DNA of 64,000 nucleotides, from assembly GCF_000311725.1 (NCBI RefSeq), contig NZ_HE978512.1:137893-201892 (forward strand), given 5' to 3'. A program made the position numbers and the translations under genes. The DNA is from Robertmurraya massiliosenegalensis JC6 (GTDB lineage Bacteria; Bacillota; Bacilli; Bacillales; Cytobacillaceae). Under the pieces are notes generated by a model that saw only the letters and a program-made list of their open reading frames with translations, was not told where the DNA came from and searched no databases. Positions 58,943 to 63,339 of the stretch are shown one piece after another; the stretch's first letter is position 1, and each line of letters opens with the position of its first letter.

Positions 58943-59000
58943 ATGAAAAAAAGAGGACTCCTACAAAGTCAAGATTTTCAACGTTGTAAAAGTCCTCTTT
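58943..59000 (-). terminator. Terminator of the flavodoxin/ATPase/FNR-like operon
   Basis: AAAGAGGACT / AGTCCTCTTT outer stem (59000-58950) with an inner short stem, then TTTTTTC on the minus strand. Confidence 0.8.
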
Positions 59001-59029: not shown

Positions 59030-59713
59030 TTAAACAACCAGCAATCGCTCTAAATCTAAAATTTTTATTCTTTTTTGACCTTTCTGTTCAATATAGCCTG
59101 TTTCAGCAAATTCTGTTAACTTACGGCTGATCGTTTCAGGGGTTGTTCCGAGATAGGAAGCTAAATCCCTTTTGCTTATCGGCAAATCAAATTCATGGCC
59201 ATTTTCTTCTTGCTCGAGACTTTCGATTAAAAATAAGGCAAGCCTTGTCTCTACTTTCTCAGTCGTAAACCTCATCGTCTGTCTCTCCGCCAGGTCCAGT
59301 CTATTCGAAAGCTCGGCTAACATTTTCAATGAAATCACAGGATATTTTATTAAAAGTTCCTGCAAGCTCGTTCTTTTGATAATGCACACTTCAGTATCTT
59401 CCAACGCTTCCGCAAATGAATGATGAAACGTATCCTTGAATAAAGGTTGCACATCAGTAAAGTCACCTGGATATAAGATCCGAATTAATTGCTCTTTCCC
59501 TGATTCTGAAAGTCGATAAATCTTTATTTTTCCTTCTTTCACAATGTAAAGGGCATCTGAAATATCCCCAGCATGATGAATGATCTCTTTATTTTTATAG
59601 GAAGCTGCTTTTGCTGTTCTCATAATTTCCTTTAAATGGGCCTCCCCTAATCCGCTAAAAATTGGAACCCTTGAAACACATGCTTGATGGAGGAATATTT
59701 TTTCTCCTTGCAT
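59030..59713 (-). CDS. FNR-like (FLP-type) redox regulator of the CRP family
   Basis: A 227-residue CRP/FNR protein: cyclic-nucleotide-fold sensor (about 18-130), dimerisation helix and winged helix. The recognition helix reads T-P-E-T-I-S-R-K-L; Glu193, Ser196 and Arg197 repeat the E-x-x-S-R contacts by which E. coli FNR reads TTGAT. The four-cysteine Fe-S motif of FNR is missing; only Cys12 and Cys110 occur, similar to the two-cysteine FLP proteins of lactic acid bacteria that switch by a disulfide. Last gene of the operon that carries two TTGAT-N4-ATCAA boxes. AAGGAG precedes the ATG. Confidence 0.87.
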   Translation of the reverse strand: MQGEKIFLHQACVSRVPIFSGLGEAHLKEIMRTAKAASYKNKEIIHHAGDISDALYIVKEGKIKIYRLSESGKEQLIRILYPGDFTDVQPLFKDTFHHSFAEALEDTEVCIIKRTSLQELLIKYPVISLKMLAELSNRLDLAERQTMRFTTEKVETRLALFLIESLEQEENGHEFDLPISKRDLASYLGTTPETISRKLTEFAETGYIEQKGQKRIKILDLERLLVV

Positions 59714-59767
59714 TTTGAATCAACTCCTTTACTGGATTAACACTTCAGTACTCAACTATATTTTAAT

Positions 59768-61687
59768 TCATTTACTGCATTTACTAAGTGAACTTCCCCA
59801 CTGTTTTTTATATCCCGTTAGTTGCTTTGTTCCAATCATTTTAGATTTGTGATTAAACCCTATAAGTCTCATTCCATTCAAAATCACAATCAACACGCTC
59901 GCTTCATGGATAAACATTCCGGATGCTAAATGAATAGAGTCGAACAGTACTCCTATTAGTAGAAAAAATACGGTTACCACAGCCAAAAAGGTATTTTGCT
60001 TCATATTACGAATCGTTGCCTTGGATAAGGCGTATGCATGAGAAAATTGCATTAGCTTATCGGCCATTAAGACCACATCCGCTGTTTCCATTGATATATC
60101 TGTGCCACTCTGCCCCATAGCTAAGCCAACATCTGCTGTAGCAATCGCCGGCGCATCGTTAATCCCATCTCCAGCCATAGCAACGATGCGGCCCTGATCT
60201 TTGAACATTTTTACATATTCCACTTTTTGCTCTGGTAGTAACTCTGCATAGAATTCGTCAATTCCTAATTGAGTAGCTACTAACTCAGCCGTATAGCGGT
60301 TATCTCCGGTTAACATAATAATATTTTCGACCCCATTTTTTCTCATTTCGCTCAAAGCTATTGCTGCATCCTCACGAATTTGATCGGCAATCGATATTAC
60401 AGCGATTATCTGATCCTCTACTGCTACAAAGACCGCTGTATTCCCACCTAGCTCACGTTCTTCTGCATATTGGGAAATTTCATTTGCAAGTTCTACTTTT
60501 TCATTCTTCATTAATTTGCGGTTACCGATCACAAGCCTTCGACCATCTACCTTCGCACGAATCCCATGTCCTTTCACTACCACTCCTTCTTCAGGTCCTT
60601 TTGTTACAGGTAAATGGCGAGACTTCGCTTCCTTGATCATGGCTTGCCCCAAATGATGCTCTGAGATCCCTTCAGCTTGTGCGACTAATCGTAGTAATTC
60701 ATTTTCTTCGAACGTCTGAAAAAGTCGAATATCAGTAACCTCTGGACTCCCTTTTGTTAATGTCCCTGTTTTATCAAAAACCAATGTGTCTACTTTCGAG
60801 AGGTTTTCCATTACTTCTCCACCTTTAACTAAGACACCATGCTTAGCACCATTTCCAATCCCTGCAACAGTAGAAACAGGCGCGCCAATTACTAATGCAC
60901 CAGGGCAAGCGATGACAAGAAATGTTATCGCAACATGGAGATCTCTTGTCATCGCAAATACGATGATGGCTAGAGCGACAGCTGCTGGTGTGTAGTAATG
61001 AGAAAATGTATTAAGAAACTTTTCTGTTTTTGTTTTTGATTCTTGTGCCTCTTCGACTAACTCAATAATTCTCGAAAAGGTTGTATCTTCACCAACTTTT
61101 TCAGCGGTAATTTCAATAAACCCATTGTCCACAATCGTTCCACTAAATACACGATCATTTTTATTTTTCCTTGCTGGAATGGCTTCACCAGTAACAGCTG
61201 CCTCGTTTATAAACGCATGCCCTGATACAATCCTTCCATCAACGGGAATTTTCGCACCTGATTGAATCACTACTCGCTCTCCAATTTCAACTTCCTCAAC
61301 TGAAACTGTTATTTGCGCTCCATTCCGAATCACAATTGCCTCTTGAGGAGCCATGTCCACCAATTCTTTTAAAGATGAACGCGTTTTTGCCAATGTACGT
61401 ACTTCTAAAAAATCCCCAAATAAGAATAAAAACGTCACAACTGCTGCCTCGATATATTCTTGAATAAAAATAGCACCAATCACAGCAATGGTGACTAATA
61501 ATTCAATACTAAAAGCTCTCATTCTTATTGATTGATAGGCTTTTATAGCAATAGGGACACCGGCAACAAAGGTAGCCAAAATAAAGGCGATATTCTTCAT
61601 TCCCTCATTATCAAAACCGCCAGCGAGCAAACCACTTATGATAAAGAGAAATGACATACTGGTCAAGTAATTTTTAAATTTATTCAT
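59768..61687 (-). CDS. P1B-type heavy-metal ATPase with CPG motif
   Basis: A 639-residue P-type ATPase: T-G-E-A actuator loop near 165, phosphorylation site D-K-T-G-T near 305, T-G-D-N and G-D-G-I-N-D-A-P hinge. Deviations: the membrane metal-site motif is Cys261-Pro-Gly rather than CPC, CPH or SPC, and the N-domain motif is S-E-H-H where S-E-H-P is nearly invariant. No N-terminal HMA domain is fused; a free HMA protein is encoded at 63032. Exports a soft metal cation, identity unknown. ATG at 61687 overlaps the flavodoxin stop (ATGA). Confidence 0.9.
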   Translation of the reverse strand: MNKFKNYLTSMSFLFIISGLLAGGFDNEGMKNIAFILATFVAGVPIAIKAYQSIRMRAFSIELLVTIAVIGAIFIQEYIEAAVVTFLFLFGDFLEVRTLAKTRSSLKELVDMAPQEAIVIRNGAQITVSVEEVEIGERVVIQSGAKIPVDGRIVSGHAFINEAAVTGEAIPARKNKNDRVFSGTIVDNGFIEITAEKVGEDTTFSRIIELVEEAQESKTKTEKFLNTFSHYYTPAAVALAIIVFAMTRDLHVAITFLVIACPGALVIGAPVSTVAGIGNGAKHGVLVKGGEVMENLSKVDTLVFDKTGTLTKGSPEVTDIRLFQTFEENELLRLVAQAEGISEHHLGQAMIKEAKSRHLPVTKGPEEGVVVKGHGIRAKVDGRRLVIGNRKLMKNEKVELANEISQYAEERELGGNTAVFVAVEDQIIAVISIADQIREDAAIALSEMRKNGVENIIMLTGDNRYTAELVATQLGIDEFYAELLPEQKVEYVKMFKDQGRIVAMAGDGINDAPAIATADVGLAMGQSGTDISMETADVVLMADKLMQFSHAYALSKATIRNMKQNTFLAVVTVFFLLIGVLFDSIHLASGMFIHEASVLIVILNGMRLIGFNHKSKMIGTKQLTGYKKQWGSSLSKCSK

Positions 61688-62145
61688 AGCTTCACACACC
61701 CCTGTTTTTCTATCATCAATTTCTCAACAAACCATTTGCATTTAGCTTGTATTTCTTCTTCATCGCAGCTTCTACTATCTACTTTTAAGCCGTTTGTGAT
61801 GATGTCACATCCGCAAGTTTTTAAACCCTCTTCCAAAATGTCAACAGCTCTGGCAAAATGTTCATAAGATGAATCCCCAGAACCAAATGCGGCTGCTTTT
61901 TTACCTGTTAAATCCACCTGGACCATTTCTTCGTAAAAATCGATGAATTCATCAGACAAATCTCCGTCTCCCCAAGTTGGACAACCGACCAAAATTCGTT
62001 CAAATGCTGTCAACTCCTCAGCAAAAGAATCGAAAGCATCTTTTACAACGACTTCATCACCAGTCTTTTCAATTGCTTCCGCTAAAGCATAAGCCATCAT
62101 TTCTGTAGTTCCGGTCATACTTGTAAAAACAATGAGCGTATTCAC
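61684..62145 (-). CDS. Flavodoxin
   Basis: A 153-residue flavodoxin: FMN phosphate loop T-S-M-T-G-T-T-E near residue 8-15, W-G-D-G-D-L near 58 and G-S-G-D-S-S-Y near 88 around the isoalloxazine. Low-potential single-electron carrier in the cytoplasm. The start is GTG at 62145 with AGGAAGTG upstream. First gene of the operon, directly behind the FNR-type boxes; it may supply electrons for regulator or metal redox chemistry. Confidence 0.9.
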   Translation of the reverse strand: MNTLIVFTSMTGTTEMMAYALAEAIEKTGDEVVVKDAFDSFAEELTAFERILVGCPTWGDGDLSDEFIDFYEEMVQVDLTGKKAAAFGSGDSSYEHFARAVDILEEGLKTCGCDIITNGLKVDSRSCDEEEIQAKCKWFVEKLMIEKQGCVKL

Positions 62146-62188
62146 AGACTCACTTCCTACTTAAAGACTTCACTATCATTACGAGTTA

Positions 62189-62194
62189 ATCATA
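62189..62194 (-). promoter_or_regulatory. Candidate -10 element of the flavodoxin operon
   Basis: TATGAT on the minus strand (five of six to TATAAT). With +1 at 62182 the nearer FNR-type box is centred at -41.5, the class II activation position, which explains the lack of a -35. Confidence 0.5.
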
Positions 62195-62214
62195 GTCGAA
62201 TTCATTTGTTATTG

Positions 62215-62286
62215 AATTGATGCACATCAATTTAATTCGGAAATTAATTAAATTGATGCACATCAATTTAATTCGGAAATGAATGA
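62215..62286. repeat. 36-bp tandem repeat carrying two FNR-type boxes
   Basis: Two units, 62215-62250 and 62251-62286, differ at two positions. Each begins AATTGATGCACATCAATT, i.e. TTGAT-N4-ATCAA with 7-bp arms (boxes 62217-62230 and 62253-62266), the full E. coli-type FNR consensus. Centres are 36 bp apart. Confidence 0.88.
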
Positions 62287-62326: not shown

Positions 62327-62355
62327 AAAAAGACTACTGCACAATTGCAGAAGCC
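62327..62355 (-). terminator. Probable terminator of the 37-residue gene
   Basis: CTTCTGC / GCAGTAG stem with one mismatch around AATTGT, followed by TCTTTTTT on the minus strand. Confidence 0.5.
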
Positions 62356-62363
62356 TTCAAAAT

Positions 62364-62477
62364 TTAATCATTAAATTTATAAACCTTTTTGTTCAAAATA
62401 AAGATCCCGATAAAAGAAACGACAAAAAATACAATGCCAGATATGGTGGTTGGAGCTAAGAACTCAATAAAATCCAT
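62364..62477 (-). CDS. 37-residue single-helix membrane microprotein
   Basis: ATG at 62477 to TAA at 62364. The peptide opens M-D-F-I-E-F-L-A-P-T-T, has one hydrophobic helix (I-S-G-I-V-F-F-V-V-S-F-I-G-I-F-I-L) and a basic end N-K-K-V-Y-K. GGGAGGG stands eight bases before the ATG. It resembles accessory peptides of membrane transporters. It lies divergent from the MarR gene, sharing its operator region, and upstream of the flavodoxin/ATPase operon. Too short for standard gene finding; supported by ribosome site, composition and a following hairpin. Confidence 0.6.
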   Translation of the reverse strand: MDFIEFLAPTTISGIVFFVVSFIGIFILNKKVYKFND

Positions 62478-62492
62478 TTTAATCCCTCCCTT

Positions 62493-62511
62493 TATATCCT
62501 AATACGATATA
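62493..62511. promoter_or_regulatory. MarR operator candidate 1
   Basis: TATATC-CTAATAC-GATATA: 6-bp arms and 7-bp spacer, just upstream of the 37-residue gene. Same arms and spacer as the second site 35 bp away. Confidence 0.6.
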
Positions 62512-62527
62512 TTTATTGTATTTAAAT

Positions 62528-62546
62528 TATATCGTGTTAAGATATA
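62528..62546. promoter_or_regulatory. MarR operator candidate 2, over the marR promoter
   Basis: TATATC-GTGTTAA-GATATA (arms extend to ATTATATC/GATATAAT). It overlaps the TATAAT -10 at 62543-62548, with TTTAAA 16 bases upstream as -35; repressor binding would block marR transcription. Confidence 0.65.
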
Positions 62547-62572
62547 ATTATCAATATCAAAGGTGGATTTTT

Positions 62573-62977
62573 ATGACACATGAATTAACGAAAGAAACGT
62601 ACGAATCACTGGCTGAATTTAGATATCAATTGAAGAAATTCCTTCATTTTAGTGATTCTGAAGCACGAAAAGTCGGAGTGACCCCTCAGCAACACCAGCT
62701 CTTACTGGCGATTAAAGGGTTTCCCGGACGAGACACAGCGACACCACGTGAACTTGCTGAGCGCCTCTTCATTACACACAATGCTTGTGTAGGGCTGATT
62801 GACCGCTGTTCACAACTCGGTCTTGTCACAAGAATAAACAATCCGGATGATGGACGCAGTGTTCTAATTAAATTGACTTTACAAGGCGAAGAAATTTTGC
62901 AGCGTTTGTCTGAAATTCATTTAGAGGAAATTGCAAGAATAGGATTTTTACGAGTAAAACAGGATGAGACGGATTAA
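62573..62977 (+). CDS. MarR-family transcriptional regulator
   Basis: A 134-residue MarR protein: helical dimer part, then winged helix with T-P-R-E-L-A-E-R-L-F-I-T-H-N-A-C-V-G-L-I-D and wing D-D-G-R-S-V-L-I-K-L-T. A Cys in the recognition helix region (H-N-A-C-V) is notable and could be redox sensitive. ATG at 62573 after AAAGGTGG; the longer frame from 62516 runs through the promoter. Divergent from the microprotein gene, with two operators between. Confidence 0.85.
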   Translation: MTHELTKETYESLAEFRYQLKKFLHFSDSEARKVGVTPQQHQLLLAIKGFPGRDTATPRELAERLFITHNACVGLIDRCSQLGLVTRINNPDDGRSVLIKLTLQGEEILQRLSEIHLEEIARIGFLRVKQDETD

Positions 62978-62987
62978 AGAAGGATTT

Positions 62988-63023
62988 GAAAAAAAGAAGC
63001 CTCTGCATCCCCGCAGAAGCTTC
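62988..63023 (-). terminator. Terminator of the HMA protein gene
   Basis: GAAGC-TTCTGC / GCAGA-GGCTTC stem with one mismatch (63023-62996), then TTTTTTTC on the minus strand; also between convergent marR and HMA genes. Confidence 0.8.
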
Positions 63024-63031
63024 CAAAAAAA

Positions 63032-63253
63032 TTATGAAATTTTCAAAGATAAGACAGGATACCCTAACTTTTTCAATGTTTCTTTTAGTTGTTCAGCCTT
63101 CAATTCAGCCTCATTCCACTCTACTTTTACTTTGCTTGAATTAAACATCACTTTGGCAGATTCTACACCTGCCGTTCTCTGAAGGACCGTTTCAATTTTC
63201 TTAATGCAAGATGGACAAGTTAGTGGCTCTAATTGGAATATGATTTTTGCCAT
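63032..63253 (-). CDS. HMA-domain metal chaperone (CopZ-like)
   Basis: A 73-residue ferredoxin-like HMA domain: metal-binding loop L-T-C-P-S-C near residues 10-15 (the usual motif is M/H-x-C-x-x-C), then I-K-K-I-E-T-V-L and V-x-V-x-W/E strands. It would carry Cu+, Zn2+ or a related ion to a membrane ATPase, and the nearest one (59768) lacks its own HMA domain. GAGGAGG precedes the ATG at 63253; the 24 residues upstream in frame are not part of the domain. Confidence 0.85.
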   Translation of the reverse strand: MAKIIFQLEPLTCPSCIKKIETVLQRTAGVESAKVMFNSSKVKVEWNEAELKAEQLKETLKKLGYPVLSLKIS

Positions 63254-63339
63254 TTTGTTAACCTCCTCGAATGTTATACCTTGATTGTAAGAGAATTTGA
63301 AAATGAATAAATTGAGGAAGATCAAGAATGGGACAATAT

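Follow-up and report, generated by a model that had tools for sequence, protein, structure and literature searches.

We analyzed a 64,000-nucleotide (nt) window of the Robertmurraya massiliosenegalensis JC6 genome (contig NZ_HE978512.1, positions 137,893 to 201,892 of the forward strand), in which genes for a flavodoxin, a P1B-type metal ATPase, and an FNR-like regulator follow one another on the minus strand (62145-59030) behind two FNR-type boxes (Table 1). The ATPase gene begins with an ATG at 61687, sharing a 4-bp ATGA overlap with the flavodoxin gene, and its stop ends at 59768, 54 nt ahead of the regulator start; the genes thus overlap or nearly do so, as a preliminary description of this DNA had stated. 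That description overlooked a boxed HMA gene farther upstream (63253-63032). Judged by the regulator, the nearest named relative is Robertmurraya siralis (L051, 87% identity), and genome G006, the nearest relative, carries a regulator that is likewise 87% identical.

Table 1. Features of the operon, its promoter, and the interval upstream of it (positions in the window).
Feature	Position	Strand	Basis
Near FNR-type box TTGATGTGCATCAA, center −41.5 (class II position)	62217..62230	−	Pattern search; spacing comparison
Far FNR-type box TTGATGTGCATCAA, center −77.5, probable lineage-specific duplicate	62253..62266	−	Pattern search; missing in nearest relative
Third, decayed copy of 36-bp repeat, 64% identity	62283..62318	−	Repeat comparison; absent from preliminary description
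−10 hexamer TATGAT	62189..62194	−	Sequence reading
Short-chain flavodoxin, GTG start	61684..62145	−	Pfam PF00258 1.2e-27; TIGR01753 128.4 bits, cut-off 123
P1B-type metal ATPase without N-terminal HMA domain	59768..61687	−	TIGR01525 575.6 bits, cut-off 346; transmembrane segment 6 (TM6) ACPGALVI, segment 8 (TM8) HEASVLIV
FNR-like (FLP-type) Crp/Fnr activator (predicted)	59030..59713	−	Cys12, Cys110, recognition helix TPETISRK
Hairpin GAGGACT/AGTCCTC then T-run, 3' of regulator	58953..58997	−	By eye; long loop, exceeds limits of terminator scan
HMA (CxxC) metallochaperone-like protein, conserved ATPase partner	63032..63253	−	PF00403 6.9e-15; in stretch of 39/40 held-out pump loci
HMA gene's own box TTGATCTTCCTCAA (9/10)	63312..63325	−	22 nt ahead of TACAAT (63289-63284)
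Terminator-like hairpin (13 pairs) after HMA gene	62995..63024	−	Terminator scan
37-amino-acid predicted membrane peptide between MarR-type gene and operon	62364..62477	−	89% identical in L054
Terminator-like hairpin separating 37-amino-acid open reading frame (ORF) from boxed promoter	62337..62350	−	Terminator scan; overall count near chance (3 found, 2.6 expected)

Both boxes are perfect copies of TTGAT-N4-ATCAA and lie, as the preliminary description had it, on a 36-bp tandem repeat, which sets them 36 bp apart; the repeat copies are 94% identical. The window contains no perfect match besides these two, the expected number being 0.40; two or more matches also occurred in 5 of 100 shuffles, and two within 100 bp of each other in none of 150 dinucleotide shuffles. 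Counted from an assumed +1 at 62182, a predicted start, the box centers fall at −41.5 and −77.5, in agreement with the earlier placement. The near box occupies the class II position (centered at −41.5) by virtue of a fixed 22-nt spacing to the −10 hexamer. A promoter scan found no sigma-70-type hexamer pair at the operon promoter, which is consistent with an activator-dependent promoter. At the corresponding place in L054 stands the box TTGATGAGGATCAA, with an identical TATGAT and identical spacing. The box of the HMA gene has the same spacing as the operon promoter, and a similar box is present in L054.

We then compared this arrangement across 61 genomes of the family and order. The regulator (threshold E 1e-30) was found in 21 of them, with 28 matches, all of which were examined with their flanks together with eight plasmid loci (four chosen by regulator and four by pump). 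Of 56 boxes located ahead of an HMA, ATPase, regulator, or flavodoxin gene, 46 had TANNNT at offset 22, and no other offset between 12 and 30 exceeded 9; over the whole relative loci, with four more included, 59 boxes did so at offset 22 and 15 at the next highest. Many sites lay 20–80 bp ahead of HMA, ATPase, Dps, regulator, or flavodoxin starts. The unconstrained columns of 60 distinct sites were symmetric, as expected of a dimer site: the fifth base was Y and the tenth R, with C ahead of the box and G or T behind it in most cases. The pump (at least 47% identity) occurred in 15 of the 61 genomes, all among the 21 with the regulator (Fisher p 7.7e-10, kinship uncorrected); G013 and G018 had pump matches at 39–40% and no regulator at E 1e-30. 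Pump copies apart from the examined regulator loci carried the site in three of four cases (G010, G024, and G027, not the second G016 copy).

Loci picked by the pump alone served as a held-out set. Of 398 genomes sampled from the class, 43 had the pump, the JC6 genome among them, at 44 places in 20 genera; 40 of these places were scored in stretches of about 12 kb (left out were the window itself, G050, G378, and a G369 copy with three stops). Within the stretch, a CPG motif in TM6 of the pump was found at 40 loci, the HMA gene at 39, the regulator at 34, a Dps-like gene at 7, and a flavodoxin-like gene at 1, and all six genomes lacking the regulator in the stretch had it elsewhere. In 38 of the 40 loci, TTGA-N6-TCAA-N22-TANNNT was present in the 1.2 kb preceding the pump; in 36, the full site was no more than 200 bp away from an HMA or pump start, and other offsets (12–32) reached at most 8. 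Of the four misses, L184 and L185 do have a box, some 70 nt upstream of the HMA gene, and GATAAT follows it at the 22-nt distance. Comparison of sequences thus establishes the site, its fixed −10 spacing, its attachment to these genes, and its co-occurrence with the regulator. Because the 22-nt spacing is fixed in the held-out loci and the regulator is always in the genome, class II activation by the operon's own regulator is likely, and the probable self-activation put forward in the preliminary description finds support in site, spacing, and co-occurrence alike.

On this survey, the conserved unit is an HMA chaperone, a CPG-motif ATPase, and the regulator, with the flavodoxin optional, rather than the triad of flavodoxin, ATPase, and regulator suggested earlier. 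The single flavodoxin-like match among the held-out loci was weak (34%). In G003 and G010, a genome-wide pattern search led to flavodoxin genes that carry a box and are not linked to the regulator. In regulator-bearing genomes, 8 of 15 flavodoxins (from 13 of the 21 genomes) had a TTGA-N6-TCAA box within 300 bp, five of them with the full layout; none of seven flavodoxins from 5 of 25 regulator-less genomes (25 of 40 such genomes were searched) had a box within that distance. The coupling of pump, regulator, and flavodoxin, as judged from these loci, is therefore a regulon in part of the family and not a fixed triad; the link to flavodoxin proposed in the preliminary description stands in the former sense and fails in the latter.

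The boxes are most readily assigned to the regulator encoded behind them. Its recognition helix contains PETISR, and hence the E-x-x-S-R residues named in the preliminary description; among 67 regulator matches, Glu193 and Arg197 were conserved in all 67 and Ser196 in 61. The protein has only two cysteines, Cys12 and Cys110, each conserved in 67 of 67 matches, and in an alignment each has its own counterpart among the cysteines of FNR chain 9qmc. It lacks the three N-terminal cysteines plus one central cysteine of E. coli-type FNR, and scored 90 bits against the NCBIfam Fnr model, below the cut-off of 228. One N-terminal and one central cysteine is the FLP-type makeup, and a reversible disulfide switch of DNA binding is a further trait of that family; the two-cysteine makeup itself is stated in PMC5039431.

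Seven other Crp/Fnr-like matches in the same genome, one of which (L006) has PESLSR, might instead supply the reader of the boxes, leaving the adjacent regulator a mere passenger of the operon. We regard this as very improbable, since an FLP-type regulator was in the genome wherever pump and site were examined, and five of the seven paralogues have an Arg before the recognition Glu, a mark of proteins that read CRP-type sites. L007 has no such motif, and none of the seven has a Cys in either aligned column. The comparison with paralogues thus supports a circuit apart from the cell's other Crp/Fnr proteins, as the preliminary description had proposed. A related FLP-type group (L070, L071, L073, L074, and L075; regulators 36–40% identical) shows this site layout ahead of a different set of genes, which by our own reading encode a PAS-domain regulator, a cupin-like protein, and a flavodoxin; this is apparently a separate regulon.

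The far box calls for a different reading. It sits inside a perfect 13+2+13 inverted repeat, and is absent from the upstream region of G006, which is otherwise alignable and has the near box only; the far box is therefore probably a local duplication. In-phase class I positions are −71.5 and −82.5. A center at −77.5 lies between these, so that of the earlier proposal of a class II site plus an upstream activator site, the class II part is borne out by comparison and the upstream activator part is unsupported. A recently duplicated second box might, instead of being a plain activator site, dampen or cooperatively sharpen control by the near box. The tandem copies with their third decayed copy, the absence from the nearest relative, and the off-phase center favor such a role, but tandem FNR sites at other spacings can activate, and the second box may simply be neutral; we consider a dampening or sharpening role rather unlikely. 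Either tuning or neutrality is possible for the far box.

The ATPase justifies its earlier description as an unusual P1B ATPase, as its TM6 motif is CPG in place of CPC or SPC. CPG was found in every pump with a readable TM6, first in 20 of 20 (taking in pump matches above 40% identity only), then in four of four, and then throughout the held-out set; neither the SPC of P1B-4 pumps nor the CPC of P1B-1 and P1B-2 pumps appeared. TM8 has HE-x-S/T in 39 of the 40 held-out loci, in line with the P1B-4-type TM8 (HEG-x-T/S). When the window pump was aligned to 7qbz, a P1B-4-type pump, CPG fell over SPC and HEASV over HEGST. We read the protein as resembling P1B-4 pumps but having its TM6 motif rearranged; lacking SPC, it is not classed as P1B-4 itself. 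In our reading, the CPG pumps together appear to be a separate P1B subclass. A gene resembling Lgt (prolipoprotein diacylglyceryl transferase) recurs near the pump in L216, L140, L125, L127, and L128, and in L216 it lies directly behind the same type of site.

Regarding the metal, the neighboring genes give diverging hints. Dps-like genes (8 of 8 plasmid loci, besides the held-out loci above) and FetB (2 of 8 plasmid loci) hint at iron, and the constant CxxC HMA partner hints at softer metals. The substrate could thus be Cu(I) or Zn(II)/Cd(II) rather than iron, with the HMA protein as a soft-metal chaperone. The pump passed the general (575.6 bits), Cd-family (490.7), and, narrowly, Cu-family (405.8) models, with cut-offs of 346, 314, and 397, respectively, and its nearest solved chains by sequence are Cu pumps by a small margin, all of which, together with the HMA partner in 39 of 40 loci, fits a soft metal. 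The alignment of TM8 with that of the P1B-4-type pump 7qbz and the Dps-like and FetB neighbors speak for iron. We hold the soft-metal assignment to be a serious candidate, though somewhat less than probable.

The signal is also to be considered. The N-terminal tails of the regulators (before the Cys12 equivalent) contained 22.6% His and Cys, compared with 3.5% in the rest of the protein, in 63 of the 67 matches (four without a tail by the start rule were dropped, and several starts are uncertain), and 45 of the 63 tails had at least two such residues. The window regulator and its nearest relative have a short tail with one His only; by comparison, the His/Cys-rich tail borne by most relatives is largely lost in the window protein. 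With the same wiring, the regulator might therefore sense metal directly through His/Cys ligands and not oxygen or redox state, making this a case of metal-induced efflux on an FNR fold. The tails, the nature of the targets (metal chaperone, metal pump, and Dps-like genes), and two genomes in which the site before an HMA-like gene is, by eye, merged with a Fur-box-like sequence are in favor of direct metal sensing, but the window protein and its nearest relative have only that one His, and the alignment of Cys12 and Cys110 to the cysteines of 9qmc also fits a cluster or thiol switch. We view direct metal sensing as a tentative alternative. The regulator may act as a redox switch, through a cluster, or by sensing metal.

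The Fur-box-like sequences deserve a separate description. In L210 (G003:C11:54926) and L212 (G010:C1:2024385), and also in L211, class II FNR-type sites have a 22-nt spacer that contains, by eye, a Fur-box-like sequence, e.g., GATAATCATTATC. Those of L210 and L212 stand upstream of an HMA-like small protein, and joint control by FLP and Fur is possible.

More broadly, an FNR-fold activator, mostly with a His/Cys-rich tail, may control a regulon that extends across the Bacilli; it would sense metal, or metal and redox state, and from the strict −41.5 site would drive the CPG/HExS pump subclass, a separate HMA chaperone, Dps, and flavodoxin. We put this forward as a speculative extension, doubtful at present. 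If true, the FNR family would include a branch that senses metal and is paired with a P1B subclass so far uncharacterized.

Genome-wide counts of the site put its weight into perspective. In the genome of strain JC6, the perfect box occurred 37 times, 33 of them inside ORFs of at least 90 residues; as about 31 sites are expected at the window's shuffle rate, genome-wide enrichment was rejected. The four remaining sites comprise the twin boxes and two more, which precede a universal-stress-protein-like gene and an ORF of 134 residues, respectively; TANNNT lies 22 nt downstream only at the near box. The pattern TTGA-N6-TCAA + N22 + TANNNT gave 19 sites in this genome, mostly coding and including the near box and the HMA box. 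Across genomes, 44 strict sites were found in 10 regulator-bearing genomes and 35 in 27 regulator-less ones (Mann–Whitney p 0.0014); a control read backward gave 6 and 15, respectively. One further class II-like site (TTGATTTAAGTCAA, TACATT) lies 83 nt before a 551-residue ORF that is peptidase-like by our own reading (L220, G000:C1:1079449), a possible target in the same genome.

Taken together, we consider it quite likely that the locus is a self-activating metal-efflux unit under an FNR-like regulator. In this mechanism, the FLP-type Crp/Fnr regulator would bind TTGAY-N4-RTCAA centered at −41.5 and touch RNA polymerase as a class II activator. A single promoter would serve the flavodoxin, the ATPase, and the regulator's own gene, and a second promoter of the same layout would serve the HMA chaperone. 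The HMA protein would pass metal to the CPG-motif P1B pump, which would export it, and the flavodoxin would act as an iron-free electron carrier. The metal would most likely be Fe(II) or another divalent metal, and the signal would be redox through Cys12 and Cys110, whether a cluster takes part or not. What we infer here is binding, activation as opposed to repression, the direction of export, the metal, and the signal; metal as the export substrate and redox as the signal are plausible.

Several observations weigh against this mechanism. The perfect box is hardly enriched in the genome and mostly coding, and so carries little weight by itself. Related genomes do not count as independent samples, nor are the box counts independent events, since near copies occur among the plasmid loci and among those of the same genus. 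Two loci lack the site (L062 and L140, the extra G016 pump copy with an internal TAG), and in L170 and L197 it is remote from any HMA or pump start. The flavodoxins of regulator-less genomes are all distant (at most 46%), and that control is therefore not matched. The CxxC of the HMA protein and the CPG motif are equally compatible with Cu(I) or Zn(II). Finally, PMC3547956 reports for Lactococcus lactis MG1363 that flpA and flpB are both preceded by a motif other than the box described here, and that the upstream region of flpB lacks the proposed FlpA motif.

With regard to the surrounding genes, the hairpin after the HMA gene makes it likely, as far as sequence can tell, that this gene and the operon are transcribed separately. 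Between them, at 62364-62977, lie the predicted 37-amino-acid membrane peptide and, divergent from it, a MarR-type regulator, both of which are also found in L054. The peptide was tried as a relative of FixS/CcoS and rejected; its single Pfam match (E 0.016) is unrelated and falls below its cut-off. A PADLOC scan returned a single weak CasR match (E 0.00073).

The circuit is of a known kind, as both FNR-like class II autoregulation and a P1B pump with an HMA partner have precedents. Neither this regulon nor a P1B pump with a CPG motif was described in the literature searched, which is weak evidence of absence given that subscription journals were thinly covered. The locus would offer a compact circuit for Gram-positive FNR-like proteins, whose signal and targets are poorly settled, and its fixed promoter geometry would permit target prediction in each genome. 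A P1B subclass is delineated as well, by CPG in TM6, a P1B-4-like TM8, and a separate HMA partner.

Among known systems, E. coli FNR acts at class II promoters with TTGAT-N4-ATCAA at −41.5 and has an E-x-x-S-R helix. The site, position, and helix are the same here, whereas the present regulator has only two cysteines and scores below the Fnr cut-off. The nearest precedent is the pair of flpA and flpB operons of L. lactis, which Gostick et al. are said to have described in 1999; they reportedly have the order orfX-orfY-flp, and later work is said to tie them to zinc and oxidative stress. They resemble the present operon in that an FLP-type regulator is distal in a short operon; a lactococcal plasmid locus in our own set has ATPase, HMA, Dps-like gene, and regulator in a row. 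The window pump has a TM8 HE-x-S/T-type motif in common with P1B-4 ATPases such as Bacillus subtilis PfeT and 7qbz, and its want of an N-terminal HMA domain is a further likeness, but its TM6 motif is CPG where theirs is SPC. According to PMC9993123, PfeT is controlled by PerR and Fur, in contrast to the FNR-like control proposed here. Lactobacillus casei FLP and Streptococcus suis FlpS are Gram-positive FNR-like proteins that, according to PMC5039431, often have two cysteines, as here. The same source links FlpS activity to oxygen. The flpS gene is located upstream of arcABC, and arcABC rather than a metal operon is the main target of FlpS.

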